A stretch of DNA of 64,000 bases from Thuidium tamariscinum. Taxonomy: Eukaryota; Streptophyta; Bryopsida; Hypnales; Thuidiaceae. Each line of letters opens with the position of its first letter. Position 1 is the first letter of the stretch. The stretch lies in assembly GCA_947034885.2 (NCBI GenBank), contig OX344755.2, forward strand, positions 28,527,052-28,591,051, written 5' to 3'. Under the pieces are notes generated by a model. That model worked only from the letters and a program-made list of their open reading frames with translations, was not told the origin of the DNA and did no database searches. A program made the translations under genes and the position numbers. This document shows positions 2,159 to 59,941 of the stretch, in pieces.

Positions 2159-2340
2159 GGGGCGGTCGGGGCCGTCCGCCCTCACTCTTGTTTTCTCCCT
2201 TGCATTTTGCAAGCGTGGAGTGGAAAGCTTGGTGGCTTAAGTTCTTAAGTCTCCATTGGTTCCCCTCCTAGGGAAAGCAAGGGTGACATTATTGGGGACC
2301 CCTTGTTGCTTTTTTTCGAAGTTTTGACGTGATTTTTATC

Positions 2341-13640: not shown

Positions 13641-13699
13641 TTAGGAATAGAAAGTAGAGTAGGTAGAGAATTTTGAGGAGCAGACTTAGTGGAAACGGT

Positions 13700-21297: not shown

Positions 21298-22335
21298 GTA
21301 ATGTATTCTGTGAATTGCATCTTTTGACTTCTTCTTTCAGCGTACCTCACTGTTTTCGAAGATCATGTAGTCATTCTTAGGCAATGTAATGCAAGTCATT
21401 GTCACTTCCACGCACTTGTTGATGGAGTTCTCATCTGTAGTTGCTTCCGAATAACACATCGGAATTCACGGGATATGTATAGGGTCGATATCATCGAGTC
21501 GATGATACGAATAATCAATATCATCGAGTCGATGATAATGTAGAGGAACATAGAAGTAATTGAGCACTCTGGTGTAGTAATCTTCACGACATGAAGCTGA
21601 TTCTTGGAATTGGAGAAGTGGATGGGTAGGTCTAGCTTTGTCAATGTTATGTATGTTTTTCCTAAAAATTATCCTCGATTCGAGGATATCTCCTTCATTT
21701 AGTAATAACTTAGTGATAGAGGGAATTCGAATTGGTAATTGTAAGATTCAGCCTTCTGATTTGACGCTAGGTGTGGTTTGATTGTTTGTACTGAGTGTCC
21801 ATATATTTGTGAGGTTTATCCTCGAGTCGAGGATGACTTTTGAAATTCTAAAAGTCATTGTAATCATTCACAGTGGCATTTGTAAAATTAGAAAGTGAAT
21901 GCTGATGTGAAGTAGTACACACATTATGCACGGGTGAGAGTTATCATTGAGTCGAGGATAACTGTTTTATCTAACTGAATACATACTGAGTGTTTGATCT
22001 TTCCATTGGGTTTTTCATGTTGAAATGTCAGTGTCGTCATGAGTGTGTGGTAGAACTAACAGTTTTTGGAGACGTTAATTTTTAAGGTTATCCTCGGGTC
22101 GAGGATAACAGTGAAGTAGGATTGTATACGACTTTTGTAGTTTGTGAAAATGAGTAGTCCCGGAAGGAATAACTGTTATTATTGGATGAGTCTTACTTTT
22201 CTTTGAAGCATGTATAATAATCTAGTTCGGCATCCATTTGTTATCTTTCGGTTCTTTTGCACCTAGTGAGATGTCGTACCTGTATTTTTTATCGTCCACC
22301 GTATGATACACTTTCTGATTGGTGATTTTTTGCAG
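21298..22335 (+). other. Inferred leader intron of element A
   Basis: A donor-like GTAATG after CACAGTAG (about 21298) and an acceptor TTTTTTGCAG immediately before the first ATG at 22337 suggest an untranslated leader exon and a leader intron of about 1 kb. All six palindromes of element A lie in this interval. There is no transcript evidence. Confidence 0.4.
21488..22108. repeat. Element A palindrome array (6 copies of a 21-bp site)
   Basis: Copies start at 21488, 21518, 21669, 21816, 21941 and 22088. The consensus is the hexamer TTATCC, then TCGA-N-TCGA, then the inverted hexamer. The first two copies have ATATCA with a matching change in the other half (TGATA), so dyad symmetry is kept while the sequence changes. 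Spacing is 30, 151, 147, 125 and 147 bp. The same design with other hexamers occurs in elements B and C. Confidence 0.85.
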
Positions 22336-22336
22336 A

Positions 22337-25190
22337 ATGAATTACCATGGACCTGAGGACTTCGCTAATCCAGTTCCAGTACTTCCATTGGATGTTCGTT
22401 TATGTGAGGGAATCCCTCGTGCAAAGTGGGTCGCGCTGCCCGTCACTCTCCGAAACGAAGATGGGGTAGATGTTGCAAGGGGTGTTTGCCAAGACGTTGA
22501 CCCGGAGCTGGTCATTGATCAGAATGGAAAGTCCCTTGGTGATGACCGAGTTGCCATTCATATTGCTGAGTCTTTGGACGAGGATTTGTTCCCCTTTGCA
22601 AATATGTGGTCACTACGTTCTTGGCCAATTAGGAGAGTGTTTCTTTATGCTGGTGCTTCTCTATATGACCATGATGAAACACAGAAGTACAACGCGGCCT
22701 TGAACCTGAAAAGAATTCGAAAGGGGATTCGATCGTACAAAACCACTCGTATAAGAGTTGATGCAGAGGTCCCTCCGAAGAGAGAACTTCTCTTAACTAT
22801 GGAATCTATCACTGCAGTTTCTACAAAAAAATGTTGCGAGATGAATTGTGTGCAACCTTTTCCACGTGCACAAATTCAAGCGATACGAACAGATTTGTAT
22901 GGAGGGAATGACTACAAGGCTCGCAACAAGACACTTTTGGAGGTACATAGGCAAATCCACAAAGACTCTAGCGGAAAAGAGTGGATCACCTTGAAGAGAG
23001 AGAAGTGTGTCCTACTGCGTGGTGGATCATTCATGGGATTGCAAAATGTACATACTATAGATACAAAGACAAAGCCAAAACTGGAAAACAAGCGGATGTG
23101 CATGGAAATTTGGGAAGCAAAAAGCCCCGTATCCAAACCCTTCAAGCTACTGCCACACTTCGAAAGTTAATTGAGTCAGATGCTGATAAAATGCCCCACA
23201 AGACAAGAACACTGGAGTCTGGGGAGAAGGTCACAGCCATGGTTCTTCCGTCTTCATTTTGTTGGAGTGATCAGTTGAAAACAATCAATGAAACAAATGC
23301 GAGCTTCAATTTGCCACCCATTTCTTCTAGTGGTTTGAGCAATATTCGTCGTGATTCTTTTCCAGAGTTTGCTGCGAAGGCATGTGGAGATTCATTTGCT
23401 AGATGTGGATTGTGTGACAAATACAACCAATTAAAAAGTGCTTGTGTAGGTGAGGAGGCAAAATCTAAATGGGAGAAATTGAAAGAAACCCATAATCAAG
23501 GGCAATTGGCTCGTAGGAAATACTACTACGGAAATTGGGACGAATCCGTAAGAGCGCCCGATAAGATGTTGTGCATCATTCATGATAAGATGGATCACTC
23601 GAAGACCGCTTCTCTACACTTCTCCCATAAGACCAAGGTGACAGAATCCTTCATGAAAATGCCTGTTGCAGTTACAGATATGATTGCTCATGGCCATGGT
23701 GATGTGCGATATGCACACTATGGTTTGGGCATTTATCCAACCGATTCAAATCATACTATTGGATCAATTGCAAGGTTGTTGCGTGATTTAGAAGGAGCGC
23801 CAAAGAATTCATCGCGCATGTTATTTTCAGTTGAAGATAACCAATCTACTTTAACGAAGGCGCTTTTAAATGGAGCTGAAACTTGTTTGGACTCTCTTCT
23901 TCCACCTCCAAATGACCCTCTTCCAGCTAAACCTCTTCCCCCTGTATTAATATTGCAGTTGGACAATTGTTCAGGGGACAACAAGAACCGTTATGTTTTT
24001 GGGTTTTGTTCCATGCTTGTATGTAAAGGCATTTTTCGTGAAGTGTACATTAACTTCCTCATTGTAGGACACACTCATGAAGACATTGATGCTCTTTTTG
24101 GTCGATGGAGCTCGAAATTGAAGACAAATAACTACCCAACGTTACCGAGGCTCATGAAGTCCTTTATGGATTGTGAAGAGTATCCAGTGATTCCTCATCT
24201 CATCGAGGAAGTTCCTGACTTCAAGGCGTTTGTACACGGATACCTCGGCACGGGTGGGGACTTCTTAGAGGGTCATTCTAGATCTCAACAATTCAAGTTT
24301 TTCAAGGATTCTAATGGATGGCCTTTGATGGAATATAAACATTTGTGTACGGATGATATGTGGTTGCCCGAGGGGGGCAAGGGAATCAAATTGTGGTCCG
24401 AGACAGTAGATGGGCTTCCTAAAGTGCCAATAGGTTGTCCTCCACCTCTAGTTCTTGAACCAATGAAGGCTCTTCTAGACGTAAAGAAGGGTTTGAGCGG
24501 TTTTTTGAGTATTGGAAGAAAATGGCAAATGACGATTACACAGGAGAGTTCAGGCGAAAAAATGGCGCATTGGAAGATTATTGGAAAGGCGTTCGTACGG
24601 CTCTCGATGCACCTCTTCAAGTACGTGAGGCATTATTTGATGGATTTTGGCCGGCATCCAGGGTTGCCCTTGATGAGACAGACCGAATGCAAAGAGATGG
24701 CACATTGCATGAGGACGACGCAGAAGATGCACTGTTTGTTGGACGTAGACGTGATTGTCCACATCCTTCATTCCGTGTTAATGTCGATACGCACGAAGGT
24801 TCTTTTATAGCAGTGCGTCCAGCTGATGGTGATCCTAAACCATTTTGGCTTGCTAGAGCCATAACGGCTCCAAGTCCAGATCCAGGGCATATACATATGA
24901 TCAAAATTCAATATTGGACGCCTGCGTCGAATCGGCACATTAATATGGATACATACGAAGGATGGGACATGAAACAAGGGAATGTATGGCGTGAAGACAC
25001 TGCAATCAAGCCAACATAGTCAAGCATGGGCTGCATTCTTACGGCTTGGAAGCCACGTTTCCGAGAAAACACTAAGAAACCGAAAGTGTTGATTCCAAAT
25101 TCGCAAATTGGCATCATTAAAGCACCATTGATGGCCTTCACAATCAATGAACGCAATGATGAAGAGAATGACTCTATGGAAGAAGAATGA
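22337..25190 (+). pseudogene. DUF7869-like transposase of element A (two frameshifts, one stop)
   Basis: This aligns along its length with the intact 945-aa protein of element B (40172-43009). The first frame starts at ATG 22337 (acceptor-like TTTTGCAG just before it). A shift near 22985-23000 moves to the frame carrying MIAHGHGDVRYAHYGL, LQLDNCSGDNKNRY and VGHTHEDIDALFGRW. A second shift near 24495-24505 moves to the frame with FEYWKKMAND and VRPADGDPKPFW. A TAG at 25017-25019 stands exactly where element B has Trp (PPIWEH), and the homologous frame continues to TGA 25188-25190. The acidic motifs suggest an RNase H-like (DDE/D) transposase with a C-terminal Tudor/BAH-like part. It is inactive as written. 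Confidence 0.8.
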
Positions 25191-25773
25191 ATATTTTATA
25201 GCTATAGTAGTAGACATTAGTTCTCTTATTGTATTTGAAATACTAGATTACATTTCTTACTGTAGTTACAAATAATGATAATGATATTTGCATGCATATA
25301 TAGGTCAAGATATGGATATGTCATTCAGCACAATATTATGACCATGTTTTAGATATTTTCTATTAATAGTGTATATATTTTTCACAATTGCATTTAAAAA
25401 ATGAGTGTAGAGAATATTTTCTTGCACAGAAGAGTAGATGACATGTTCATGAAGACAAAGCGTAATATCATGAAGTTCATATGTGTGTTGTAAGAAGTAG
25501 AAGTCTCCATTTTAAAAAAATTTAAAACTTAAAAATGTTTTGAGGTATTTTGTTTACTTATAAAATAATTGAAAGATGAAATTTGGATGTTGATAGTGAA
25601 TATTTGCCATTTATATAAGTAAAAAAATAATTATAAAGTATTATTCTTGACATTTTTGAGTCTCAATTTAATAAGAAGTCTCAATTTAATGAAAGCTTTT
25701 TTGGCCCAAAAATAGGAAGCCATTAAAATGAGACGACGATTTGTCTCATTTTAACGAATAAGGCCTTGTAAAC
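25191..25773. other. AT-rich 3' flank of element A
   Basis: No gene is seen. Two imperfect copies of TCTCAATTTAATAAGAAG/TCTCAATTTAATGAAAG lie near 25661-25695. The right end of element A must lie in or near this interval, but no terminal repeat was recognised. Confidence 0.4.
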
Positions 25774-26042: not shown

Positions 26043-26063
26043 GAATCTAGAAAGTAGATAGGA

Positions 26064-27274: not shown

Positions 27275-27279
27275 GTCCA

Positions 27280-28386: not shown

Positions 28387-29370
28387 TCATGCTCCCACAC
28401 ACGGGAGAAGTTCAGTCATGAGGTAGTCGTCCATGACCCCATTTCCATTGTAGGACCATGTGTCAAGTAGGACGACTTGGCTGGACAAGTTCATGAAGTG
28501 CTTCACGGGACTATCATCCACAATAATTGTATTTTGATCTGTGAAGTTCCAGGATTCCACCAATTTCAACTTGTCCAAGGGCTTGAGAAGCAGGTCCTTG
28601 TTCGTGCTCTTGACCTTGTAGGGAACTACCTTACCGCGAATGTTCCTACACATCATGACTCCGCATTGCTCTTGCCCCAGGACATACAACGGCTGCTCTA
28701 TGCCTTGGAACAGGTGCTCTATGATGGGCTGAACATTGGCCCTCTTCATGGAACTCCAAATGTGGACATGGGCAATGAGGGTCAACTCGCAAAGGAACGC
28801 AAGACATTTGGGTCGTAGGGCAACCCTCTTCAATCTGATGTACTCCACGTTGATTCTTGATGGAACCTCGTGGATTTTTCCCTCTCTAGCAAGAGATTTT
28901 CTATCCTCACTGACGTAGAGCACTCCATTCAGATCTAGAATGACATTGAGCCACCTCTTCGTCACCCCAGATGTGGATGGGACAGCGACTTGGGCCGCCG
29001 CGTCATCTACCCAAATAGGATCCTCACATCTAGTACCCTGCCCACGAACGTACACGAAAATGTCCAGACAGATAAGCCGTTGCGCCTAGCCTTCCAATTT
29101 GCAAAAAGAGCACGCCGAAGCACAGCAAACAAATTCAGGCACCACAAGAAATCAATCAAGACAAATATATAGAATTAGGCCTAGAACTTACAGGCCGGCA
29201 TCTTCACTTTGCGGAGACGTCAAGGTTGTTTCAGTTGCTGGCCCATCCAATTGAGGTGGTTCAATGTAAAGTGACAATAAAGCCATGCCATCGCTTTGTT
29301 GGCGGATTGCAGAAGAAGACAATGGAGCATTAGTGGAATTTGGTGGGGGGATATCATTGCAAGGAGTCAT
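28387..29370 (-). CDS. FCP1/NIF-like HAD phosphatase-fold protein of element C
   Basis: Two exons are inferred on the minus strand: 29370-29192 and 29029-28387, joined by a GT-AG intron (donor CCT|GTAAGT; acceptor TACTAG|A) that keeps the frame, giving about 273 aa. The protein has the HAD motif I variant VILDLNGVLYV (DxD-type Asp kept, second Asp replaced by Asn, as in several plant FCP1-like proteins) and motif III/IV NTIIVDDSPVKHF. The fold is that of FCP1/NLI-interacting-factor phosphatases acting on phospho-Ser/Thr. Activity is uncertain because of the Asn. It lies downstream of the main element C gene on the same strand and is flanked by a C-type palindrome, so it probably belongs to the element. 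A related domain is fused into the CACTA TNPA-like protein. Confidence 0.7.
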
Positions 29371-29577
29371 TTTTGTGTCTGCTTGAATGGAAACACAAAA
29401 ATAATTGTAAGAAAGACGTTTTACTATATGATCTCATATCGAGAAGTTTATTACAATTTTTACATTTTCACTGTCTTCACCTCTAGCTATCCAACTACCT
29501 AGCTCAGGGACGTTGAACAAAATCAATTAAAATTGTGCAGCGGATTCAAGTCGCAGCAACTTGAATCAAAAAGGAAG
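29371..29577. other. Spacer between the two element C genes, with one palindrome
   Basis: This short noncoding interval holds a C-type 21-bp palindrome at 29545-29565 (TTCAAG hexamer at both ends). Confidence 0.6.
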
Positions 29578-30512
29578 TCACTCATCACAACCTGCTCCTG
29601 CATCTGGCGTCACATCTAAGTCCACATCCCCAATCCCGCCTTGGTCCTCTGCCCTCTCCACCACATCATCCACTCTGTCAGGCGCAAAGTCAGGTGTCTC
29701 CGTAGCAGCGGTTCCGCCATCTCCATGTGCGTCCCCCTGAGAAGGATGTCCTGAGACTGGCACCCCTGCCTCAGGCTGTCGGAGGAGCCATGCGCTTGGG
29801 CAACAAGAAGTAGCTTCTGGGACTACGTTGGCGAGGGCAACATCATGGCAAGGAGAACGGTGTTCTCGGCAGTGTAAGCCCTTGAAACGCTATTTACAAG
29901 ATCCGGCACAACATTGTTTATCCAGTCCTTCATCTCCTGCTTGTCCTCCTTCCGAACCCTTTTATTTTCTCTCTTGTCCTCAAGGCGTTCCTTCCTCAGT
30001 AGCTTCCTATCCTCCACTAGGTAATTGAGAAGTTTCTGCATCTCATAGATGTCTTGGGAGGTTTCCACCTTGCTCTTCTTCTTTCGAGGTGCTGAACTTG
30101 GTGTCGCAGAGGCTCGGGGTGTGGCCGATGCAGTGGACACCGGAATGGCACTCGCATCCGCTATGTCGTCGAGGTGAACATCTTCTCCCTCCAGCATCTG
30201 AGAGACCTCGGGCATTTGAGAGTCCTTGGGCATCTGAGAGTCATCGGGCTCTTCCTCCTCCTCCGCTTCCACCTCTTCTTCTTCTTGCTCCTCTTCCATT
30301 GCTGGCTCGGAAGCCTTCCTCTTGCCCCTCCTTGAGCTTGACTCGGCTTCCTTCCTCATTGGCGCTCTGTCCATGGGATGGCATGACTCATCGACGAAAT
30401 AGCTTCCGTCTATGAAATCTTTCTTGTCCATGTTCTCGGCCAGCTCTGCGAACTTCCTGAACATCTCCATATCACTGTTGCTAGCAATGGCAAAGTGATC
30501 CATTCCAGTTAT
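29578..30512 (-). pseudogene. Element C main gene, 3' exon(s): acidic/coiled-coil C-terminus
   Basis: The exon begins at 30512 after an acceptor (AACTACAG) and reads ITGMDHFAIASNSDMEMF, an NLS-like RRGKRKASEP, a long Glu-rich tract (about 30230-30300), three QMP/QML repeats, and a Lys/Arg/Glu coiled-coil-like stretch before WINNVVPDLV. Near 29835 the frame shifts and continues as LANVVPEATSCC to the stop at about 29578. It looks like a DNA-binding or chromatin-associated tail. It is joined in phase 0 to the upstream exon ending CAAW at 30677. Confidence 0.5.
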
Positions 30513-30676
30513 CTGTAGTTCAACAAGCAAGAGTCAGCGCTAGTGTGTAGACAATTCAAGTCACCTCGACTTAAACAGCACAAACTATATGAAATTCTAT
30601 TAGTAGGAAAGTGAGAAAAAATGTGAAAAAAAGTCTAAGAGCAAGTTCAAGTCGAACCTACTTGAATGAAACATAC
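30513..30676 (-). other. Inferred intron of element C with two palindromes
   Basis: Donor TTGG|GTATGT (30676) and acceptor CTACAG|ATA (30513) join reading frames in phase 0. Inside lie two C-type palindromes, 30555-30575 and 30646-30666. Confidence 0.6.
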
Positions 30677-31976
30677 CCAAGCGGCGCATACAAGTTTGCT
30701 TCCAGCGAATACAGGGAACACCGTTGCCCTCGAGTTGTAGAAGAGGTCTAGCACTTGTAAATAGAACTCCATCCTCAACTCAGTGTTGTAGATTCAAAAT
30801 TCTAGCTCGTTGTACAATCCCATTTTTTGCCACTTTGGCAACGGAGCCACCTCGAACCTCTTCAGAATGACTTGAGTTCGCGGACGCATCTTCGAACCTC
30901 TCCACCAAGGCCGGGCAGTACTCGGAGTAATGGGTCAAGTAGTGCTCGCCTAATTTCCCTCTTCTGACCTCCACTTTGATGTCGTTGTCGACATCGTGAT
31001 CTCCCGTAATCAGTAGCCAGACGTTAGGATCGAATGGAGCTGGATCATCAAGATTCATCAGAGTCTTCAAGAATTCGCGGTGAAATGGAGAGTCCGGAGG
31101 CGCGGTCTTCTTGTTGATGACTCCTGGAATGTTCCGAAAGTCTGTAACAGCAAAGGCCAAGCTTGTATTCAGGTTGTTACTCCACCTGTTGTCGATCCAA
31201 GATAAAAGATGGTCGTCTACCAATCATATCGTAGGGCCTCAGAAACAACTTTGCTAGGGGCATTTTATACTTTCCCTTGGTTCTGAGAAACACCCTAATG
31301 AATTCGGCGGCATACTGCGACATTTCCCTGGCCCTCTTGTTCTTGCTGGAAGGCAACTTCGTCTTCGAGAAGAAGATCTCACCAAGTCCAATGAAAAGCA
31401 GATTCTTCGTAGGCGGGGTTACGTTGTATTTCTTCTTGAAGTCCTTCCACGCGCTGACCTTGTAGTTGCCCTGACTGTCGTAGAAGCCAAGGCTGCGTTT
31501 CTCCAAAAAAATGTACTTTCTCACGGCCTGCTTCCGCTTGTTTCTCTCGAGCCAATCCTTGGAGCTATAAGTCTATAACAGTCCACCTTCACGCCTGAGA
31601 TCTTCTTCAGCGTCACCTTCGGATGCGGATGCGTCCGATTAGGAGTTCGATTGAGAAGGTACAGCGCCAACTTCTTGAGGTCTAGCTCCATCAGATTTCC
31701 CAGCCACCTAAAAAACTCGTGGGTAAGGACACCATCTTTCAATTGATCCCAATTCTTAGTGCTCTTCATGGGCAGCAAGGTCTCTAGATCAATGAGGAGC
31801 CCATGGAAAGTACTTGATATGACCTCCTTCCAAAGTGCAAAAACCTCATCCAAGGTGGTGATCAGCTTGATCTCGTTTTGAATGCTGATGTTGTTGATCC
31901 GTTTTTTCGTCAAAGCTCCCTGGTGCTTTTTCACATCGAGCATAGCAAAACGCAGTTTCATCGCATCATGAAACCC
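30677..31976 (-). pseudogene. Element C main gene, middle exon (frameshifted)
   Basis: The exon starts at 31976 after the acceptor TTGGAACAG with GFHDAMKLRFAML. Homologous-looking sequence is spread over three frames: to about 31560, then DWLERNKRKQAVRKYIFLEKR to about 31210, then DDHLLSWIDNRW to about 30785, then TELRMEFYLQVLDLF to the donor at 30677. At least three single-base shifts are needed, so it is not translatable as written. I do not recognise the family; the sequence has the mixed charge of a soluble protein and no membrane segment. Confidence 0.55.
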
Positions 31977-32145
31977 CTGTTCCAAGAACATAAAGAACAA
32001 TTAGATTCATGTATACCCGACTTAAACTATCGAAACAGGGAAATGCAAATAGAGAAATTCAAGTCGACCCGACTTGAACTATCGAAACAGGGAGAAACCA
32101 ATAAAAAAATTTCAAGTCAACCCAACTTGAAGCTGTCTCTTTCCG
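31977..32145 (-). other. Inferred intron of element C with three palindromes
   Basis: The interval ends at the acceptor TTGGAACAG. It contains C-type palindromes at 32006-32026, 32058-32078 and 32111-32131, spaced 52 and 53 bp. The first two are followed by the same phrase ACTATCGAAACAGGGA, so they arose by tandem duplication. The donor on the upstream side is not clear. Confidence 0.5.
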
Positions 32146-33625
32146 GCCACTTGGGTGCGGCTATAGGGTCTTTCTAGGCTTTCTTCTTTGGAGTCACAGA
32201 CTTCCCGAGCTCTCTTGGCTCCTTAGACGGAGGCGGATGACTCAGGCTCAGCCAGACATTTCTGGCGCTAATGATGTTGGTTCCCCACATAGGCTTCTAT
32301 GTCTGCAGGTGATTCGTTTTGTTGTAGAACGCAGAAATTTTTCTGATGACAGAATGCTTTGGATTCCAAACGATGAAGCATTCCTATGTCTCAAATTTCT
32401 TGCTTTTCACCTCTGCGCCCTCAAGGGTTCTCATCTGCTTGGAGGCCTCCACATTGTGCTTCCCGTTTACCATCCAAAACTTGCCATCCTTGATGTCCTC
32501 CCATCTCGCTGGATTTTCCGTCAAGTTTTGGGGCATGGCACAAAGGGTCATCTTCTTATTTGGATCAGGCATCTTCAAATAAAATTGGAGCGCAGACTTC
32601 ACACCATTTTCCTTGAGTGCTCTGACGTTGATTGTCTCTGGTGGAGTTTCTAGATTATCAATATGGATCGTGTGTGTCTTGCCCTGGCCAAAAATATATG
32701 ATGTCTCGTAGTGCTCCCAATGATCTTCATAAATTTTTTTGGATTCGAGGTAATTAAACTCCTCCTCTTCGTCAGCCACGTCTCTTGGTACTCTTGTAAG
32801 GACTGAGGCCATGCTGTCGTCTGCAAGGGCCTTGCCCTTCGCAGCTACATCAGACTTAGCACTAGTCTTGGTCTGAGCGAGCGGGCTAGCACTGAGGATC
32901 CCCTTGCTGTCCTTGGCAGTGGTCTTTTTCTTTGTCTTGCTCCGCTGAGTACCCGCAGTCTCCACAACCAGAGACCCGTCGCTCCCTCCGACCTCTTTCA
33001 GGTTCTTTGTGATAGAGAGGGGCCTCATCTCTTTTGCTTTGCTCTTCGCTTTTATTACATATGTGTCGAAACACCGAACGACATCGCGAAGCCTTGATGC
33101 AAGTGTCTTGGCCTTCAGAGGCCCATCGTCCTTTCCTCTGTAACGTCCCGCGTCAATGTGATCAACCATTGACTTGTGCAGCTCTGTGAATTGAGAGTCC
33201 TCTAGACTCCTACAGGTTGTTGCAATAGAGAATGTGGTACCCTTGCTGAGGACAATGTATGAAAAAACATACTCCTCCTCTTGATTAGGGAAGTTTATTG
33301 TACATGATATTACGAGCTCTTCATTCGGCCCGTCTGTCACCTCTCTGACACTTTCGTGCAATGAATTTGGAAGGCACGTGTCTTGGTTCTTCCACTTCGT
33401 CTGGAAGCTGAGATGACCTGAGGCCGGAGCGAGGACGATAGTCCAGTAGTCTACATCTTGGGGGTCTTTCCAGGTCGAACAGTCCCCCAACAGAAGCTCG
33501 TCTCCATATTCCTCGATGTCTTCATTTTCTTTCATTTCAAACCTTTTGAAGTACGGGAGAAGTCGCTTTGTCTGCTCCTCCATCTGTGTGAGCCCTCGAG
33601 ATGGCACTCAGGACTCTGGGTCCAT
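32146..33625 (-). pseudogene. Element C main gene, 5' exon (several stop codons)
   Basis: A minus-strand frame from ATG 33625 (MDPES) meets TGA 33608-33610. It then stays open for 407 codons (33607-32387), and continues in the same frame through TAG at 32384-32386 and two more TAGs to about 32146. It contains a Lys/Ser-rich linker and, near its end, GKFWMVNGKHNVEASKQM followed by ECFIVWNPKHS and AFYNKTNH. That end resembles a ParB-like substrate motif (GGxH..A) found in some uncharacterised plant and algal proteins; this is a weak assignment. The three late TAGs stand where Trp would fit the local pattern. It is a transposon-encoded protein of unknown function. Confidence 0.55.
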
Positions 33626-36600: not shown

Positions 36601-37660
36601 AATTTCTTTAAGAATTTTAAGGAAATTAAAATTAATTGGATTATAAAAGATTTGGTTGCAATTCTTTATTCAAATTAATCCTAATAAGCCAAATTAAAAA
36701 AGACAAATTGACAACCAATTTCTTAAGGATTTAAAAGAAATTAAAATTAATTAGATTATAAAAGATTTGGTTGCAATTCTTCATTTAAATTAATTCTAAA
36801 AAGCCAAACTAATTGACAACCAATTTCGTTAGGAATTACCAAGAAATTGAATTAGTTGGGATTGGCGATGACATTTTAATTCTAAGAAAGAAGAACAACT
36901 CATTACGTCGAAATTAGGTGAAATTTAATTCTTAAAATTAGATAAATTTGTAATTCAATTAATCAAAGAATAATAATACTAACAATTAGATAGGATTTTC
37001 ATTGATCATTCGAACTATTTAGTAGATTCAAAATATTGTGACATTTTCCAATTACCAATAAATTAGGAATTGAAGAGAAAATGTGCAATTAATTCGAACC
37101 TACGTAACTTTCAGTGGCTTATTTTAATTAGGAGAAAATTTACTAACAATTGTGGAAAATTACTATGGATTAGATGGAGAACCGGGATGATTTCGATGGC
37201 GAGGTCGTAGGGGAATATTTACACATGATGATGTTTGACGACGGGACCATGGAGATTTACGCAGAGGAGGTAAACCGCTCACATTTGATTTTCATTCTAA
37301 TTGTTTTACTGTTAAGTTTCTTTTTACCAAACGCTTGGAATTAGATTTAGGCAAAACTATAGAATAGAGTAGGGTCACTTGGTTGCATTTTAGAATAGAA
37401 TAGATAGAATTATAACCACGAAATTAGATTAGAAACACCCAAAACGCGTGACTAAAAGAGTTCATTGCTAGGAAGGCTTTCTTTTTCACCCAATTAGAAA
37501 GAAAACTCAATTAGACACAGGACCCGTGTGAAAAACTCTTAGCTCGAGGGTGGAGTTAGGAGCGCTCACAATCTGCAATTCGAATGTATTGATAAAAACA
37601 CAAGCAATCAGGCCTAATCTGATAATACAATGTCAGATGTTTGTTTGAATCTTATATTTC
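33626..37660. other. Repeat-rich insertion-like region upstream of element C gene
   Basis: This stretch separates the element C gene from its upstream palindromes. It is mostly AT-rich without genes. It contains an LTR-like promoter region: TATA box GTATATAAGG at about 35158 followed by a short GC-rich leader. After that come two copies of CGGTTTAAACACTGTCATG-type sequence, 83 bp apart (35425 and 35508). A GGAGTCGGGCGCTGGGAGGG tandem patch lies at 35925-36005. There is also a roughly 110-bp tandem repeat (36591, 36707, 36812; phrase ATTGACAACCAATTTC). It may be an LTR retrotransposon remnant inserted into element C. Confidence 0.45.
37174..37344 (+). CDS. Small ORF, 56 aa, unknown
   Basis: ATG 37174 opens a 56-codon frame starting MENRDDFDGEVVGEYLHMMM, with an acidic, coding-like first half and a splice-donor-like GAG|GTAAAC at about 37270. 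It may be a first exon of a plus-strand gene or chance. It has no recognisable domain. Confidence 0.2.
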   Translation: MENRDDFDGEVVGEYLHMMMFDDGTMEIYAEEVNRSHLIFILIVLLLSFFLPNAWN

Positions 37661-37669
37661 TAGATTATT

Positions 37670-38208
37670 TTTAACTCGATCCGACTTGAATGGATGGAAG
37701 TGATATCCTATATAAGTTATTTTGAATTTTTATATTATCAATTCATGTCGTATCGACTTGAATGGGAGGGGAAGAATAGTATTGAACGCGAATGGAGTAT
37801 GGACTGGACTGGCTTGATCTGCGGGAGAGGAGATTACAGGCAGTTCATGTCGCCTCGACTTGAATCAGTTAGCAGGTTGGGTACCGGCGATTTGGATTTC
37901 ATGTTAAGAAATAGAGGTTCTAATGAATTCATGTCGTATTGACTTGAATTAGTGGTGGATGATTCAAGGCTATTGGTCTAAAGCGGAGAGATTGCAGTGA
38001 AGGCTTTGGTATTTTTCATGGCGTCTTGACTGGACTTGCGAAAGGAAGCGAATTCAAGTCGTATCAACTTGAATGTTCTGAGGGAAGGGAATCTAAGTTG
38101 AATATGAAGAAGGACGGAATTCAAGTTGTTTCGACTTGAATGTTTTGAGGGGAGGGAATTTAAGTTGAATAAGAAGGGGGGAGGGAATTCAAGTCATTTC
38201 GACTTGAA
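37670..38208. repeat. Element C palindrome array, 5' cluster
   Basis: Seven well-formed 21-bp sites start at 37670, 37742, 37844, 37928, 38053, 38120 and 38188, with a degraded one near 38014. The consensus is TTCAAG or TTCATG, then TCGN-N-TCGA, then CTTGAA. With six more at 29545, 30555, 30646, 32006, 32058 and 32111 the element holds 13. The spacing here is 67-125 bp. The cluster lies upstream of the minus-strand element C genes. Confidence 0.85.
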
Positions 38209-38229
38209 TAGAAAGGAGGGAGAGTATTG

Positions 38230-39656
38230 AACTTATAACATCATATTCATTAATTTGGTAGATTGAGGACCTCCCAAATAATATTATCCATTCGCAGGGC
38301 CAAAAAACCATCTATAATTGTATTTAATTTAGTTCGAAAGGATCTCATTTCATTAGTTAGAAATTGTAATTTCCATTAAAATGATAGGTTAAAGTCGTGG
38401 AAATATAGCATCTCTAATCTTAATTTCGTGTTTCTATTCAAAGTTACAATATTTCATACAAACTGGTACCTAGTGAATGTTGCACTTTACCTATTCATAT
38501 GTGAATCTTTCCTTTTGGTAGTCACCCTATTCAGTTAGGGTATATTGCGGGAAGCGATGCAAGAGACTGATTGTTGTGTGATTGGAGGTCCGGATTCGAA
38601 TCCTGTTGACCTCCATTTAATTAAGCCGTAGGCGCTATCCTGATATTGAGCTAGAGTAAGGTTGTATTTAGAACTCAAACACAATTTTTTGTAATTTTTT
38701 AATGACCTAATTGAATATATGTAGACCTGACAATTGAATTCTACATATTACAATTGACACTAATACAGTAACACTTTATAAAATAAGACTTATAAGATTT
38801 TACAAATAGAAAGTGGAAATTATATTACTATATAGAGTGAAAATAGAATTCTTTTCTAAAATTCTAAAACTATACTCCAGAACCTGTGTTAATAGCACAA
38901 AAAACACTTTTCAGCATTATTTGAAAATAAATGAAATAATTATCTCAAGAATTCAAAAATGATAAATCAATATTAAAAAAGGATAAGCTCATAAAAGAAA
39001 GCTCATTCAAGATCCAAACTTGATATTAATGAAATTCAAAGCGTTTTCAGAGAATCATAGAATACCTAAAACTATTATAATTCTTTGTCAAAGCTAATTA
39101 CAACAAAATCAATTTGAGCCAACGGCTTCATTCACTAAAACATATTTAACAAAGATCATATACCATTTTGACTTCCATACTACAGAATATCCATTAGAAC
39201 AGCTTCACTAGAATAAAATGTATTTCAAATACAACATTTTTGATAGAATGGAATTCAATCGTTCTTCTAATTTAGTCATTTTTTAAAGAAGTAGTTATAT
39301 AAATAATAATAAAAACCTAATTTTTTTTACTGTGAACATAGTAAAACTGTCATCATCTTCATATTTGAAAATAAAAATTGTATGAGTGGATGCAACCAAA
39401 CTACATTTCCTTGATTAAATATGAAGCCCCAAAGTGAAAAGTGAACACATTATCCTGTGATAGGGGCTGCAAATCTTCGTTTCATTAATGAAGAGCTTAA
39501 TTGCTCACAATGATCGAACCTAAATTGCAAAGATGAAGAAACACATTCCATTCAATTTGAATGAACTCAAAAAAATAAAAAAATCTCCCATCAATCAATA
39601 ATCGTAGACAACATGATGGCGGCTCCATGAAACCAAAACTAGAACTGAACTAACAC
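38230..39656. other. AT-rich spacer between elements C and B
   Basis: No gene is supported. A small hairpin with a tRNA B-box-like loop occurs at 38584-38614 but no cloverleaf can be built. The element ends of C (right) and B (left) should lie here; no terminal repeats were recognised. Confidence 0.45.
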
Positions 39657-39800
39657 TTTAGGTCGACTCAACCTAAATAGCATCCTATGCCAAAAGTTAA
39701 TCCACAAATGCACTGTTGTTTAGTTTGAATCAACCTAATTTGATTGCACCTCTAAAAAACAACTACGAAGAAAATGCAATTTAGGTCGACTCAACCTAAA
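39657..39800. repeat. Element B palindromes, 3' side (2 copies)
   Basis: Two 21-bp sites lie at 39657-39677 and 39780-39800: hexamer TTTAGG, TCGA-C-TCAA, inverted hexamer. They are 3' of the minus-strand transposase gene. Seven more are on its 5' side at 59287-59941. A half-site remnant is visible near 39725. Confidence 0.8.
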
Positions 39801-43009: not shown

Positions 43010-43051
43010 GATATCTGAATCAAACAATCAGACTCACAAATTAGCTACAAT

Positions 43052-43083
43052 CACTACAAAAAAACTGGGGTATAAATGACTGC
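43052..43083 (+). repeat. Left terminal inverted repeat of the CACTA element
   Basis: It begins CACTACAAAAAA and ends GGGGTATAAATGACTGC. It pairs with 59207-59238 with two mismatches. Confidence 0.9.
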
Positions 43084-44270: not shown

Positions 44271-44274
44271 TCGA

Positions 44275-49463: not shown

Positions 49464-49639
49464 TTCGTGCTCTTCTTGTTTGTCTCCACGCTCCACTTCT
49501 CCTTCCTTGCTCACGATCCGTCCTCGAAGGCCTCGCCTCCTCGAGCTCCTCCGCAGCGGTCCACGATCCTTTAGCGCGCGATCGGCAGTCTTCGGGGGGT
49601 TTTCCTCCGCGAGTTTTTTGTCCCTGCGCCGCCACACTC

Positions 49640-52600: not shown

Positions 52601-53324
52601 TTATTTATTTTTATTTTTTGTCACTGCCTTTCTTGTTGAGGAGCATGTCTACCAGAGATTCCTTGGATCCATGTTCTAGATATTATACATTTCTACATAG
52701 GTATTATTTCTGTCATGATTGTTTTCGTAAGTCCCGATATGTTAAGCAATAGCAAATGAAGAAGTTTCTTAAATGACAAGAACATGAATATGACTAAAGA
52801 ATGACTTCAGTGAAGTCATTTTAAATCCTTTTAAAATGACTATTAAAAGACTCCAATGAAGTCACGTTGGTAAATTCATGACTGTAGAATGACTTCTCTG
52901 AAGTCATCTCTGGTTTTCAGTTATAATAAATGACTCTATAATAACTTTCTCATAGTTGTACTCACTAAATAAATGAGTCTTGCAATTAATCACGGATACT
53001 CTTTCCACTTCTGCCGTATCTTGTAGTGCAGGAATTCTATCTTGATTATGAACGTCAGGCATGCAATAGCACCAAAACACTCAGATTTAAAGTGCTTTGT
53101 ATTGCAGATAACGGAGGAGCAGGGTCATCATTCACCCTCAAGCCGAAGAAGGAGAAGACCACCTCAAAGTGTTTGCCACTAAGCGCATTGAGGTATTCCA
53201 CACGCCTGCTTAGCAACTTCCGACTGCTACGTGACATGCATGGAAGACGCTGCATTGTAGCCTGAAACCAGCGAACCTCTTCCATTTCGAAATGCCTAAG
53301 TAAAGAGTTCTAAAAGCCGCACCA
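49640..53324. other. CACTA internal region between the two main genes
   Basis: There is no strongly supported gene. Open frames at 50160-50528 (122 codons) and 53026-53265 (79 codons, with an acceptor-like TTGCAG near 53107) could be exons of a minor plus-strand gene. Dispersed AGTCATTT-type motifs continue through it. It also carries the three 135-bp repeats described separately. Confidence 0.4.
51473..51800 (+). repeat. Three tandem 135-bp repeats, each with a GCGCTTTGA hairpin
   Basis: Units start at about 51473, 51608 and 51742 (the third shortened). Each has a T-run followed by a palindrome with arms GCGCTTTGA and TCAAAGCGC, at 51509-51528, 51644-51663 and 51778-51797. The two-base centre is GA in the first two and TC in the third. 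Confidence 0.85.
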
Positions 53325-53753
53325 TTGGTTCGTCGTAAGAGGCGTAGAATTGTGGAGTCTGATTCTGACAAAGAAATAGATAAGCGTGACAGAAGTTCGA
53401 AAGCACATGGAACGTGTATTCGAACGAAGATGTCCACGCCGTTGCTCCAAACCGATAATTCTGCAGATACAGGAAAAGAGACGTCTATACTGCCAGGACT
53501 CCCAAGCTCCACTGAACACCATGTGTCACCTCCTAATTCTTCCCCTATGAACCCAGAGCTGGAACGGCGCTTTGAAGCGTGGCTAGCATTGGCATTAGGG
53601 CATAGTTCCCCGTTAGTAGGAGTTCATGGGAATACATCCATTGAGGCAGTAGTCATAGTACCTCCCACCAGTCCCATGGTTCTGTGTTCAAATGCTATAA
53701 CTGTGTCTACTAGTTCTAGAGGAGCTAGTACCTCTAAATCGCCAGGAACTTGA
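53325..53753 (+). CDS. Small CACTA-internal ORF, 142 aa, unknown
   Basis: Starts MVRRKRRRIVESDSDKEID, a strongly basic then acidic N-terminus that could be a nuclear localisation signal. The rest is Ser/Thr/Pro-rich. It is on the same strand as, and upstream of, the TNPD gene. It may be a real minor protein or a first exon; there are no homologous motifs I recognise. Confidence 0.35.
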   Translation: MVRRKRRRIVESDSDKEIDKRDRSSKAHGTCIRTKMSTPLLQTDNSADTGKETSILPGLPSSTEHHVSPPNSSPMNPELERRFEAWLALALGHSSPLVGVHGNTSIEAVVIVPPTSPMVLCSNAITVSTSSRGASTSKSPGT

Positions 53754-54270
53754 GTATTGGACTTGTTTGAAGAATGAGAAAAAGAATTTTAAGTTGTGTT
53801 CCATGTTGTAGTAAGATTACAGATACCATTCATATGTATGGATTGTTTTTGAATTAGTAGTTCCAATTTATGATTTTTTTCGAACTACTGGACATGACCC
53901 TCTTCCGATTGAGGCTAGAATTTTATTTATGTAGCAATTGTCGTGGCAACCCTATCCCCCCTCCCAAAAAAATAAAGATAAATTAAATGGAGGATTTGAA
54001 TACCAGTCTATGGATTCAATGTGATTTTGAAGATCAGGTGCATGTCTTAAATGTTGTGTACAATGCCAGCATTTTTTGTGTCATAGTCAGTCATTAACCC
54101 GTGGAGAATTGTCGTGCTGCAGTCATTTTCAAGTGGTTATACAGTAACGCAAGACATTTATCAGTCACCTGTCTCTTCAGTGAAGAGACGAACACCTGTG
54201 CATTCTTGAAGAGCCCCCAAGTTCTAGGCAGACCCAACTCCATCCACGAGAATCTATAATTTCTACAGAG
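53754..54270. other. Gap before the TNPD gene
   Basis: The interval is noncoding and AT-rich, with one AGTCATTTTCAAGTGG-type motif at about 54121 and an acceptor-like TTCTACAG just before the ATG at 54271. An untranslated leader exon further upstream is possible. Confidence 0.4.
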
Positions 54271-57200
54271 ATGATATCGGGTAGACTCCCCCTCTTGAAT
54301 AGTGAAAGGCAACGGCTACGGGACGATCGCTTGTGGACAAGAGAGTTGCAGAGGGCTACGGAATTGAATGTCAGAAAATTGCATTGCCCATGCACCAACT
54401 GTCGAGGTCGGAAAAAGTTGTTTTTGCGCAACGTTCGGGAGCACCTGATCCGCAATGGGAGACATCCAGATTGTAGAATGTGGAGAGGTCCGGGTGCACG
54501 GGACTCCTCAGATGAGGAGTGGGAGCAACAATTTTGGAGATCGGGGGGACTAGAACCAGGGGATTTGGATGCTACAGTTGACACTCGGGGCATGGTTGAC
54601 CAAGTGTTGCAACCACCGGAAGATCCAACATCTACAGCGGAGCGAGTGCAAGAAGAAGTCGGGGCTGCTTTTGCCACATCAGATTCTATCCACGAGGAGT
54701 TCATGGAGGCGGGCCAAGGTGACACTGCAGAGGAAGTTGAATGTCGCGATGACCAGCATGCTCCCGACATGAACGCAAGCAATGGTGACGGTGACCCCAA
54801 TTTTGATGCTCGAGTATTGGAGGAGTCATTAGGCCATTTGTACGATGGTGCTAGGAGCAGCAAGCTAGCCGCGACAATATTATTGATGAACTTGTGCACT
54901 GTGCACGGCGTTAGCAACCAATGTGCCAATGAACTCTTCAGCATATTGCATTCCCATCTCTTACCACAGAACAATACCTTACCAAGAACCTACCACGCAG
55001 CGAAATCCCTTACTGGGAAGTTGGGGTTGACATATAACACCATCCATGCATGTGAGCATGGGTGTGTCCTTTTTCGTGGACCCCATGAAGATGCCCTACG
55101 CTGCCCTAAGTGTGGTGGTCGAAGATACCGAGATGAGGAGCGGAAGTGTTTCCCATTGAAAGTGCTTCGTCACTTTCCGATCATTCCACGACTCCAGAGG
55201 ATGTTCATGAGTCCTAATATCTCTAAGTTGATGGTATGGCATGCAGATAATCGAAGCAACCGTGAGGGTGGGGATGGCCTAGTGAGACACCCATGTGACT
55301 CGAAAGCGTGGCAACATTTTGAGGAGAACGTGGATCCTTCTTTTGCAAGAGAAGCCCGCAATGTTCACTTTGCCTTGGCAGCAAATGGAGTCAATCCTTA
55401 CAAGCAAAACCGGTCCTCATGGTCAACATGGCCTGTAGTGTTGTTGAATTACAACTTGCCTCCATGGTTGAGCACTAAGAAGTTTTTTATTATGTTGGCT
55501 CTCTTGATTCCAGGGAGAGAATCAGTGACATCTGATGTCTTTGACGTGTACCTTGAGCCTCTCGTGGAAGAATTGCTGGAGTTGTGGGAAGGTGTTTCAG
55601 CACATGATGTGTCTAAGGATGTTGGCTCCAGGGCTTTCCAATTGCGGGCCATGTTGTTGTGGACTATCCACGACTTCCTCGGTTATGGCACCGTAGGAGG
55701 TTTTTCACATCAAGGATATGCAGCATGTCCATGGTGTGGTGAGGACTTAGGTGCTGAGCATTCAACGGAGTTGGGGAAGCAAACATACGGTGGAACTAGG
55801 CGTTGGCTGCCTGAAGATCATCCTTACAGGTCTGAGCACATGAAGGACCACTTTGACGGGAAGATGGAAAACCGTCCAAAACCACGCACAGTGACAGTGG
55901 AGGAACAAATACGGCATGCATTGGAGTGTGAGGCGTGGAAGGCAGCTGGAAACAGAGATGGTTCAACAAGGGACCCTTCAAAAATATATGGCCTGAAACG
56001 TCTGAGCATACTTTTTCGATTGCCGTATTAGAAGGTGAGTGTAACTTGTTTCAGTCATAGTTATAAAGTATGATTGGTTTATGACTAGAATGTGACTTTG
56101 AAGCCATTCAGGAGTGTAAGTGTAGTCATAATGTAGAAGGAGTCAAGACTAAGTCATAAGAGACAACTACGTAATGAGTAGTTTATGACTTCCTGTCCGT
56201 AAGAATGTTGTATTAATCCCGTCAATGATGTCTACATTTTCAGGCCCTGCTTATTCGCTACACGTTGGATGTAATGCACTATGAACTAAATCTGGCGAAA
56301 AACTTCCTCAAAACCATAACAGGCAAGAAGGATACTGTGAAAGTGAGAAGGGACTTACAGAGGCGGAATATGAGGCGACACTTGTGGCTGACTCCACATC
56401 CACGTAGAGCAGGGAAGATGGTGAAGCCTCGTGCATCCTATGTGCTGGCGGATGATGAGTTCGAGAAGTTCGCCAAGTGCATTGAGGTGTTAAAGACACC
56501 AAGTGGGTATTCATCTGACCTCGCCAAGTGCATTCGCAAGAAAAACTTTGGCGGCTTGAAGTCCCATGATTATCACGTGCTAATGCAGCAGGTAATGCCA
56601 CTAGCTCTCCGTGGGTTGATGCAACCTGGACCTCGTATGGCTGTCATGAGAATGTGCAAGGTTTTCCGCCGCCTTTGCACAAAGGTATACAACCCCGCAG
56701 ACTTTCCCTCACTTGAAGCTGATGTGGCTGAAAGCATGGCATTATTGGAAATTGAATTCCCACCCTCCTTCTTTGATGTTATGACACATCTTCCCTACCA
56801 TCTTGCGAAGGAGTTGGACTTGTGTGGACCTGTGAGTGCAAGGTAGATGTATCCGGTGGAACGGTACATGAAGGTACTCAAGAATCATGTGCGTAACATG
56901 GCACGACCAGAGGCTTGCATGGCAGAGGGCTACCTGAAAGACGAGTGCATTGGATTTATTACAGAGTACCTGAAAAAATTTGAAGCCACTCAAAGACGTG
57001 TATGGGATGAAGATGAAGAATATGGAGATGCTGAGGAAGTTTTGCAAGGGGCAGGGAGGTCGTATGTAATGAGTCCAGAACTAAGAGACATAGCCCACCA
57101 GTATGTGCTATCCAATACGTCTGCAATGCAGAATTTGGTTGCGTAAGTGCTTTCTTTACCCATCTGTGTTTGAAGAGCCTAAAATTATATAAAAAGTAGA

Positions 57201-58198
57201 CACATCCTCATTGTCTTCATGGATATTGTACTCCCTGAGACCTGTACAGTCGTTCAAAAGACACCATAAAGTCATTTTACAGTTGTGTCACGAAAGAGTA
57301 AGTGTAAAATGACTTCTTTGTCACTAAGAGAAGTAACACGGCAGTCACAATTCTGTGTCCACCGATTGAATTCTGCTTCTAAAGCCAAAACGAGGACTCT
57401 GTTTAGGAAATGGTGAGTAGAAATTGATCCACACATTTCTCATCAGTTTGTCGAATTTGTACTTTCAGGCAGTGGACGACAGAAACTGAAGCGAATCCAA
57501 ATACTCCAACATTGGCAGATTGGATTCAAAGGACTGTACAGGATTCAGATATGGATTTGGGTAACCCGGAGCACATGGACCTGTTCCTATTAAGCAAGCG
57601 CCCAAATCAAAGAGCTACTCGCTATGCACGCATTATTGCTTTTGGTAACCACTTCCGAGTGGAAGATGAGAGTACCATACATTTGGTGAGTTACAACAGT
57701 GGTGTAGCTTCAGTTTTCCGACAACGGATAGGAGTCGCTGAGGAAACAAATGTCAACTACGTGGGAGTCTTGAGGGACATACTGGAGTTGGATTACGGTG
57801 CACTCACTACCAAGATCATTTTGTTGCGATGCGAGTGGGTGAAAAGCCAAGACAATCGAGGTAATGAAACGTATACCAGAGACGAGTCGGGATTTCTTGT
57901 GGTAAACTTCCGTCACAAGCTGCCCCGCATGGCTGAGCCATTCATTTTTCCAAGTCAAGCCACCCAAGTATTCTTCTCGGATGTCATAGGTCGGCCAGGA
58001 TGGAAAGTGGTATTACATAAAGAAGCTAGAGCAAGACGGGAGGTTGTAGAGACGGCAGATGCATTCATTAGCACAACAGTTGAGAGTGCAGGACTAAGAG
58101 CTCCGCTAAGGATGCCAAATCCTCCACCCACAGCAAACCTAATAGGAGCCATAGAGTTATCTGAGGAAGATAACTTGTTAGCACAGGAAGGCTACTAA
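54271..58198 (+). pseudogene. CACTA TNPD-type transposase (Transposase_21, DUF4218, DUF4216)
   Basis: Three exons: 54271-56034, 56244-57142 and 57469-58198, with GT-AG introns 56035-56243 and 57143-57468. Exon 1 has a transposase-associated zinc-type motif CPCTNC (residues 39-44) with a following His, a CEHGCVLF...CPKCGG region and the Transposase_21 core (WSTWPVVLLNYNLPPW, LLWTIHDFLGYGTVGG, ACPWCGEDLG). Exon 2 begins ALLIRYTLDVMHYELN and carries DUF4218 (PVERYMKVLKNHVRN). Exon 3 carries DUF4216 (YGALTTKIILLRCEWV; FPSQATQVFFSDV). Two TAG codons, at 56029-56031 (after LPY) and 56844-56846 (before MYPVERY), each replace a Trp that is highly conserved in this family. Otherwise all exons are open, so the copy is recently inactivated or its stops are suppressed. 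Confidence 0.9.
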
Positions 58199-59206
58199 TG
58201 TAGTCATTTTGCAGTTATCATCTGACATGCCAATATAATCTATTGCATCATTTTCAGTTTTGTTTCACAATTGTGTAGCCCTGTGCGTGCAAAATATATT
58301 CTGTAAATGGATGAGAGGACCTCATAATATTTGAACAGCAGAATCATAATTCAAGTCATTCCACAGTGCGAGTGTAGTCATTATATAGTTGCCCTGTAGT
58401 CAATTTTAGTCACTTTTTAGTTCCGATGTAGTCGGGATTGAGTCACAATCTATTAGTGTCGGCCATTTCTTTCGCAATGATGTGAGGAGACTTGAAAGTG
58501 TATAACTATCCACTGAAATATACTCTCTTTCAGACTTTGATATGTTCTACTTGTACAGAGCATACTACTGCCTACATTTCAGTCGTGTCATGAGCATGCA
58601 GTCATTTATCTTTAATTTATTCTATTTTTTGTAAGAGGCGCAGCATGTAGAGTACCGCGATCCTATGTACAATAAATGCTCACAAAATACTTTGGAATCC
58701 TATCTAATGAGCACTATGCACCCAAAATAGATGACCATTCATTGCAGCTAGCAGGGGTTCCATATTTGCAGTGTTCAAATGTGATTAATCACATCAAGAA
58801 GTTGTAACGGAGGGCGCAGTCTCATTTTAGTCATGCTGAAGTCACTATCTTCCACGTCATCGTGCTGCCCGGCCAGTTCCCTGCCCGCAAAATGTGGACC
58901 TAGCAAATTTTTCATGTACAGTCAATTAGAAGTCATTACTAAGTACCGATAAGACATAGTTAATAACTAATACGCACTCATAAATGACTCGATGAGGCCC
59001 CTTGGATGTACCCTTGTCCTTGTACTGTAGTCAAACACAGTACTAACAGAGAAACATAGGCTGTTCTCCTACATCCGTCATGTCTTCATCCGCAAGTCGC
59101 AGTGACGACTAAAAAATGACTCAGAGACTGCTATTCCCGCAAGGCTGGTGCAATTACAGAGGTACTAGTCACGCTGCAGTCAAACCGGACATAGAGTCAT
59201 TTCCTT
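58199..59206. repeat. Right subterminal repeat region of the CACTA element
   Basis: AGTCATTTTGCAGTTATC at 58202 and many AGTCATT/AATGACT copies lie in both orientations. There is no gene. It mirrors 43084-44270. Confidence 0.65.
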
Positions 59207-59238
59207 GCAGTCATTTATACCCCTGATTTTTTGTAGTG
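59207..59238 (-). repeat. Right terminal inverted repeat of the CACTA element
   Basis: It ends ...TTTTTTGTAGTG, complementary to the left end; it is followed by the AAT target duplication at 59239-59241. Confidence 0.9.
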
Positions 59239-59286
59239 AATTGGAAGGTAATAGAAACACAGAAGAAAGTCTTCTTCTATGTACCA

Positions 59287-59941
59287 TTTAGGTCAACTCG
59301 ACCTAAAACATCCATCGTACGCTAGAATCTGAAGTATCTTTCCAAGACAGTAGCAAGTGGATATTAAATGAATTGTCAATAGAAACAACAATTGTATCTC
59401 GGAAGACAAACATAATATAGTTTCTAATCAGAGTAACTGTAGAATGTAAATTAGGTCGAGTCGACCTAAAAAGATCAAATCTAAGGATAAGGCATTATTA
59501 TATAGTCATCACATGATTGTTCTTGTATTGAGTAAAGATAATCACCGTATATAAAGTAACATTCTGTTCATTTCAATAACACAAAACAGTGAACCGGACA
59601 TTGTGATATATTCACCATTTAGGTCGATTCAACCTAAACTGTTCAGTCTCTATTCATTGTAATTAATTTTTATAACATGAAAAATCATGGTGTACTTCAT
59701 CATAGATGGTGATAATTTCTGGATTTCATCTGATATCTAGTTTAGGTCGAGTCGACCTAAACAGTAGTAATATAAGATATATTCTTAATGAGTGGTTTAT
59801 TTAGGTCGAGTCGAGCTAAAAGGGTCCCAACATGAACTTGGAAGTGACAATCGGCTACATTTAGGTTGAGTCGAGCTAAAAGGGTCCCCAACATGAACTT
59901 GGGCGTGACAATCGGTTACATTTAGGTCGAGTCGAGCTAAA
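59287..59941. repeat. Element B palindrome array, 5' side (7 copies)
   Basis: The 21-bp sites start at 59287, 59450, 59618, 59741, 59800, 59860 and 59921: hexamer TTTAGG, TCGA-G-TCGA, inverted hexamer. The last three have GAGCTAAA, a one-base change in the right half, and share a flanking phrase (AGGGTCCC...ACATGAACTTGG), spaced 60-61 bp, so they arose by tandem duplication. With the CACTA element removed they lie upstream of the element B gene. Confidence 0.9.

Follow-up and report, generated by a model that had tools for sequence, protein, structure and literature searches.

Can a transposon carry a sequence by which its own proteins would tell it apart from its relatives? The question is raised by a 64,000-bp stretch of the genome of the moss Thuidium tamariscinum (contig OX344755.2; hereafter the window), in which an initial annotation had noticed 21-bp palindromes in three elements, A, B and C, and had read them as a constant core, TCGA-N-TCGA, between hexamers specific to each element. 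We looked at these sites in the window joined with its fetched flanks, in total 310,282 bp (C7:28457052-28767333, with the window at 28527052-28591051; C7 is one of the 19 contigs of a 363-Mb genome); coordinates above 64000 or below 1 follow the window numbering. This region holds nested DNA transposons, with an element D inside B and B inside C, and its palindromes fall into four classes, each confined to its own elements, a marking by element that is well supported.

One class of palindrome per element

The scan for the four classes allowed at most two mismatches over both half-sites, a threshold that loses weaker sites such as the one at 32006, and used consensuses derived from the same data as those scanned. 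It detected 97 sites. Class A accounts for 50 of them (12 in a block A', -53483 to -48053; 6 in element A; 23 in D; 9 in a block A'', 229538-230422), class B for 23 (21 in B and two in a copy of its right end, B'), class C for 14 (12 to the left and two to the right of B), and a fourth class for 10 sites in a block called E. When every site was assigned to its best class, no array in the window or in the surrounding 310 kb held the hexamer of another, as had been claimed, and no element or block contained a second class, even where D is nested in B and B in C. The view that each class marks its own element is thereby borne out, and nowhere in the 310 kb did one element carry several unrelated hexamers. 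Neither did the palindromes occur at random in the DNA covered: there were none in the remaining DNA (194,172 bp of the 310 kb outside three blocks, in intervals set after the clusters had been seen) or in two 10-kb stretches of contigs C3 and C11, and three runs on Markov sequence of equal length yielded 1, 1 and 0 matches to classes A-C.

B and D each encode a DUF7869 protein and a cassette of four coding blocks, namely C407 (an NGQHS-motif protein), gene 2, gene 3 and a NIF-type phosphatase. With respect to these genes, the palindromes of the window are placed as follows.

21488..22108: class A array, six palindromes immediately preceding the element A DUF7869 gene
29545..29565: single class C palindrome separating gene 3 from the NIF gene
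30555..30666: two class C palindromes where gene 2 gives way to gene 3, in an intron or a gap
32006..32131: three class C palindromes between the C407 open reading frame (ORF) and gene 2, partly tandem with a period of 52
37670..38208: class C array of seven, about 4 kb upstream of C407, continuing at 102395 and 102472 past B
39657..39800: three class B palindromes on the 3' side of the element B DUF7869 gene
59287..59941: class B array of seven

A consensus scan of the window returned the six class A palindromes (21488-22108) and the 13 class C palindromes (29545-38208; five mismatches at 32006, at most three in the remaining ones) of the initial annotation, but 10 instead of nine for class B, three at 39657-39800 and seven at 59287-59941, the additional one being the weak site at 39719 with four mismatches. 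Matches with up to four mismatches also number 6, 10 and 13, the last figure being composed of 12 class C sites and the class B site 59741, which is counted because the hexamers of B and C differ at just two of six positions; the means over 60 first-order Markov sequences at this threshold were 0.02, 0 and 0.03. Palindromes with a TCG..CGA core and at most one arm mismatch were found 13 times against 0.075 expected (40 simulations).

The constant core did not hold for all classes. The class A consensus is nTATC[C/A]TCGANTCGA[G/T]GATAn, and its core TCGANTCGA is common to A and B only. Since position 10 of class C contains almost no information (0.15 bits), we read this class as two 9-bp half-sites 3 bp apart, TTCAAGTCG-NNN-CGACTTGAA, with a free centre; in the fourth class, TTTAGCGCG-N3-CGCGCTAAA, GCG/CGC replaces TCG/CGA. 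At the CpG of the half-sites, changes from C to T at position 8 (29) outnumber changes from G to A at position 9 (11) over all classes (p=0.006, the sites not being fully independent), as if a methyl group were tolerated at position 8.

Nested elements and their ends

The elements that bear the palindromes, and the element that interrupts one of them, are listed here.

38237-102363: element B, 24,983 bp once the CACTA and D insertions are subtracted
38233..38236: target-site duplication (TSD) TTAT of element B, second copy at 102364
38237..38261: left terminal inverted repeat (TIR) of element B
72897-95846: element D, 22,950 bp, with 25-bp TIRs (AAGGCCTTATTCATTAAA...) and TSD ATAA/ATAA
43052..59238 (+): nested CACTA (En/Spm) element with tnp2 transposase, TIR CACTACAAAAAA and TSD AAT/AAT
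25743..25767: right TIR of element A, GTCTCATTTTAACGAATAAGGCCTT
106636-116799: block E, fourth-class sites (n=10) with C407 relatives nearby; a TIR-like sequence stands at 104994
229538-232940: A'', a decayed DUF7869 element with many CG-to-CA/TG changes in its class A sites

The TIRs of D differ at two of 25 positions and have the termini AAGGCC, and those of B share 15 of the first 17 positions, diverge beyond these and have the termini AACAT/AACAC. D disrupts the C407 gene of B: when its flanks are joined, they read ...IDSLKIPFYI-THFIDSLEDTEY... in one frame across the junction with a single ATAA, one stop being present elsewhere in the joined frame. B in turn is inserted within the array of element C, the sites of which resume beyond it. 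Just B and D are defined on both sides; in a TIR search, only the right TIR of A and neither end of C was found, and A, C, E, A' and A'' are without a second defined end.

The initial annotation had missed that the two B arrays belong to a single element split by a CACTA insertion, and that such elements combine DUF7869 with a cassette. The inserted element has CACTAC/GTAGTG termini, a 3-bp TSD (AAT) and a Transposase_21 match (E=1.3e-64). It separates the 59287-59941 array from the DUF7869 gene of B, and without it this array lies directly upstream of that gene (43027-40175), as in A. Two other delimitations were considered and rejected. B is not a 20-kb CACTA element with subterminal arrays, the CACTA termini at 43052 and 59238 lying inside the arrays of B and being flanked by AAT, and D does not form one two-hexamer element with the adjoining TTTAGG array, since the TIRs identify D as an insertion in the C407 gene of B. 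Neither B nor D has CACTA termini, their TSDs are of 4 bp, and tnp2 is located in the nested element. The latter also contains a NIF-type phosphatase domain (45395-47071, minus strand, E=2.7e-9), and phosphatases of this type seem to turn up repeatedly in moss transposons that are not related.

Element genes diverge between classes

22319..25187 (+): DUF7869 gene of element A, split over several ORFs; the 22972-24807 part is 90% identical to the D copy over 523 amino acids
40175..43027 (-): DUF7869 gene of element B, a single open frame of 951 amino acids
73474-76344 (-): DUF7869 ORF of element D
28390..29085 (-): NIF-type (C-terminal domain-like) phosphatase gene of element C, PF03031 at E=3.9e-12
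29826..30533 (-): gene 3 ORF of element C, acidic, charged and helix-rich by eye, with 26% identity to its counterpart in B
30783..32000 (-): gene 2 of element C, divided over three ORFs
32387..33607 (-): C407 ORF of element C, encoding a member of the NGQHS-motif protein family with a weak ParB likeness
84238-85679, 85868-87292, 91395-92957 and 93337-94263: C407, gene 2, gene 3 and NIF of element D, on the strand opposite to its DUF7869 ORF

The cassette proteins and DUF7869 are alike within a class and diverged between classes. C407 is 73-79% identical within a class and 21-39% between classes, gene 2 64-77% and 25-50%, gene 3 46% (within class A) and 26-32%, and DUF7869 90% and, in the main blocks, 47-54%. 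C407 and gene 2 are probably one gene, because the database proteins P0140 and P0144 read both in one open frame. C407 resembles ParB only weakly: PHROG ParB-like profiles matched two of six proteins, at E 0.04 and 0.27; Pfam ParB matched none of the six members, and an AlphaFold model was unusable (mean pLDDT, the predicted local distance difference test, 38). A methyltransferase likeness of the gene 2 C-terminus was not significant (PDB profile matches at E 0.24 and 0.29). PF03031 matches the NIF genes of C and B; that of D was named by its similarity to the B protein (41% over 59 amino acids), its first ORF having no Pfam match. Contigs of equal size (46,150; 313,938; 460,842) suggest, indirectly, that DUF7869 and cassette genes share contigs elsewhere too.

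DUF7869 proteins, whose named relatives come from Physcomitrium and Ceratodon, have invariant or nearly invariant Asp and His residues in HDKxDH, QxDN and GHTHxDID, where model confidence is mostly below 50, and a DDD transposase is a possible identity. The predicted structure (mean pLDDT 61) had no fold match at E<=0.001, and no paper on DUF7869 was found among the open-access papers searched. The ATG of the A gene is immediately preceded by the 3' splice-site-like TTTTTTGCAG, and a 3' splice-like sequence likewise precedes the start codon in B; the arrays upstream of both genes may for this reason lie in a 5' intron or a promoter.

Corresponding places hold the class of the respective element. 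Own-class sites are present upstream of DUF7869 in A, B, D and A'', upstream of C407 in B, C, D and A', and in these same four at the C407/gene 2 boundary (85693/85806 in D and -50524/-50410 in A' for class A, 96935/96999 for class B, 32006-32131 for class C) and at or after the end of gene 2. They follow gene 3 in B and C and lie inside the gene 3 ORF in D and A'. Class A sites inside ORFs are those at 92516 (translated YPRVEDT in gene 3), 92684, -53483, -53315 and -48899.

The same design in other sources

A 4,327-bp contig, L001 (CADCWO010000071.1), encodes a DUF7869 protein 52% identical to that of B. Sites of the TTTAGCTCGANTCGAGCTAAA type (TTTAGC type) lie before the gene at 34, 114 and 489 (0-1 mismatch), the one at 489 being the identical 21-mer to site 59800 of B, and weaker ones lie after it at 3573, 3750, 3821 and 4071 (3-5 mismatches). 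This contig is filed in a cyanobacterial (Synechococcales) genome bin and is apparently moss, a contamination of a public assembly.

The database matches are peptides, not DNA, in which palindromes would appear in translation. Among 154 database relatives, peptides of TATCN palindromes in frame 0 gave eight matches in seven proteins against 0.08 expected (e.g. YPRLED), and those in frame 1 gave five against 0.09; 10 of these 13 lie near gene 2 ORF ends. The third frame is little informative (7 against 0.71). TTTAGN peptides matched twice (expected 0.3), in the early part of one DUF7869 ORF and the late part of one gene 2 ORF, and peptides of the TTCAAG and CTTAGG classes did not match among the 154. 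Two scans of viral contigs found no relative.

What could read the palindromes

We think it probable that the palindromes are element-specific operator sites, read by an element-encoded protein that keeps the element transcribed or unmethylated. Each site consists of two inverted 9-bp half-sites 3 bp apart, to which a homodimer would bind, and within moss DNA transposons of 23-25 kb the sites occupy the upstream regions of both transcription units, the gaps between coding blocks and, in some cases, ORFs. From the dyad symmetry, the exclusivity, the coordinated change at corresponding positions and the unconserved flanks of class A, we infer a dimeric, sequence-specific reader that changes with its element and is predicted to bind its own class only. 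The divergence between classes would make a cassette protein the likelier reader, with DUF7869 as second choice; the best candidate is the fast-diverging C407-gene 2 product, and gene 3 is a further one. Such a reader would cover the non-coding DNA of its element and hold it in a transcribed or unmethylated state, as suggested by the VANC precedent (PMC5735166, PMC10398659) and by the NIF-type phosphatase domain, the element's phosphatase possibly acting there on RNA polymerase II. More tentatively, the elements might have a self-address system, in which a dimeric reader of a private 9-3-9 palindrome would accept a CpG that bears a methyl-like group, could therefore act on copies that are silenced and would recruit the polymerase-II-type phosphatase of the element to maintain their transcription, and in which new classes would arise by coordinated change of reader and sites, separating lineages.

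Several observations weigh against an element-encoded reader. DUF7869 was seen in A, B, D and A''; cassette genes were seen in B, C, D and A' and, in part, in E, and the two could be placed together only for B and D. No Pfam DNA-binding domain was significant in the scanned cassette ORFs, the nearest being the helix-turn-helix-type DUF2089 (E 0.13). The class A blocks are related among themselves, and the independent classes are only about four, all in one 310-kb region except for L001 and the database peptides. The flanks of classes B, C and E show some conservation (up to 1.1-1.3 bits), and duplication or a longer site therefore contributes there. Finally, the arms are symmetric in 30 of 50 sites at position 6 of class A (permutation mean 20.1) and in 23 of 23 at position 2 of class B (19.3), which independent half-site contacts do not predict, although some sites are duplicates. 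The variation at these two positions looks as if symmetry itself were maintained.

Other explanations were compared with the operator reading. The palindromes could be transposase-binding sites, for DUF7869 or in the manner of CACTA subterminal repeats, at which a transposition complex assembles and whose class marks the cleavable ends. Subterminal repeats of CACTA elements are family-specific and bound by TNPA, and the palindromes do flank or precede the DUF7869 gene in A, B, D, A'' and L001; in L001 and B they are found to either side of it. A few weak sites also lie near the ends (38328, 91 bp from the left end of B; 94873 and 95299, 0.5-1 kb from the right end of D). The strong ones, however, start 3.5 kb and 3.1 kb from the left and right ends of D and at 1.4 kb and 1.1 kb in B and spread through the interior, some inside ORFs. 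That strong sites are internal and not terminal argues against a role in transpososome assembly, and we hold this explanation to be unlikely. Still less probable is a family of host transcription factors to which the elements would have adapted separately. Host factors often bind palindromes, and most sites lie upstream of genes or between coding blocks, but a joint switching of all sites, including those inside ORFs, with exclusivity in each element would be hard to explain, and there were no sites in the remaining 194 kb or in the two stretches of other contigs.

Two further explanations were considered. The repeats could have spread passively within each element by duplication and gene conversion, with no reader protein, and some copies are indeed true tandem duplicates (59799-59941, 38042-38209, 32015-32131); given also the partly conserved flanks in B, C and E, duplication appears to have contributed. 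In class A, the largest, conservation nevertheless stops at the 21-bp edge (about 0.1 bit per position in the flanks), and the maintained dyad symmetry and the presence of each element's own class at corresponding places leave a purely passive origin with little probability. The chance that the palindromes act as RNA or DNA hairpins in transcripts is the smallest of all. Their geometry permits a 9-bp stem with a 3-nt loop and position 6 of class A covaries between the arms, yet in the assumed sense strand wobble pairs are about as frequent as C-A mismatches (34 vs 31, p=0.80; 91 distinct of 95 sites, that is, the 97 without 38328 and the two of B' and with 32006, strands being assigned from the nearest genes), and within a class it is the sequence that is conserved, not pairing alone.

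Relation to known transposons

VANDALs are Mutator-like transposons. The palindromes had been thought to be absent from any known element description, which is not so for the general idea: in Arabidopsis, the non-coding regions of VANDALs contain short motifs, specific to the family, to which VANC proteins bind (PMC5735166). It does hold for the present elements and sites, of which no description was found in open-access titles and abstract starts among the matches listed. As in VANDALs, the class-specific motifs are short, often tandem and concentrated in non-coding parts, although some class A sites lie in ORFs, and related families differ in motif, and in VANDALs also in target spectrum (PMC5735166, PMC10398659). 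Binding by an element-encoded protein is demonstrated there and would be expected here. The motifs of VANC21 and VANC6 have 8-9 bases, the word palindrome being absent from the main text of PMC5735166; here, by contrast, they are 21-bp dyads in a DUF7869 element with a NIF-phosphatase cassette. The target duplication of Mutator-like elements (MULEs) is 7-12 bp (PMC10741241), against 4 bp in B and D, and no MULE domain was found among the ORFs scanned, which are part of all ORFs.

Sola transposons have a DDD transposase and a 4-bp TSD and are mostly of 2-9 kb, some above 15 kb (PMC10741241); Sola1 is listed for Physcomitrella (PMC9033089). TIRs with a 4-bp TSD (in B and D, two of the two elements with both ends defined), a moss host and possibly a DDD transposase are likenesses to Sola, drawn from features, not from protein comparison, whereas the length of 23-25 kb, the multi-gene cassette and the element-specific palindromes are differences. 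With CACTA elements the present ones share family-specific arrays of short motifs, and binding by an element protein, a CACTA feature, would be a further likeness; CACTA termini, 3-bp TSD, tnp2 and subterminal arrays set CACTA apart from B and D, and only the nested 43052-59238 element fits. Our best model is a self-recognition resembling that of VANC and VANDAL, but putatively dimeric and in an unrelated, Sola-like transposon.

Self-recognition of a transposon, with joint change of the recogniser and some 20 sites, is best known to us from Arabidopsis VANDALs, and this is apparently a second, independent case. Some mosses are good genetic models, and the long, symmetric and easily scored sites, in four classes in one region and one elsewhere, make the co-evolution of recogniser and sites testable in mosses. 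They could also yield programmable, sequence-specific activators or anti-silencers.

Other features of the region

A retroelement-like segment at 11034-15030 with an ORF of 639 amino acids has probably moved recently, because its two copies, at 87317-91318 (inside D) and 111958-115954, are 96-97% identical. At 2287-3839 (plus strand) one ORF overlaps with a second, which matches a protein kinase weakly, under the Pfam cut-off.

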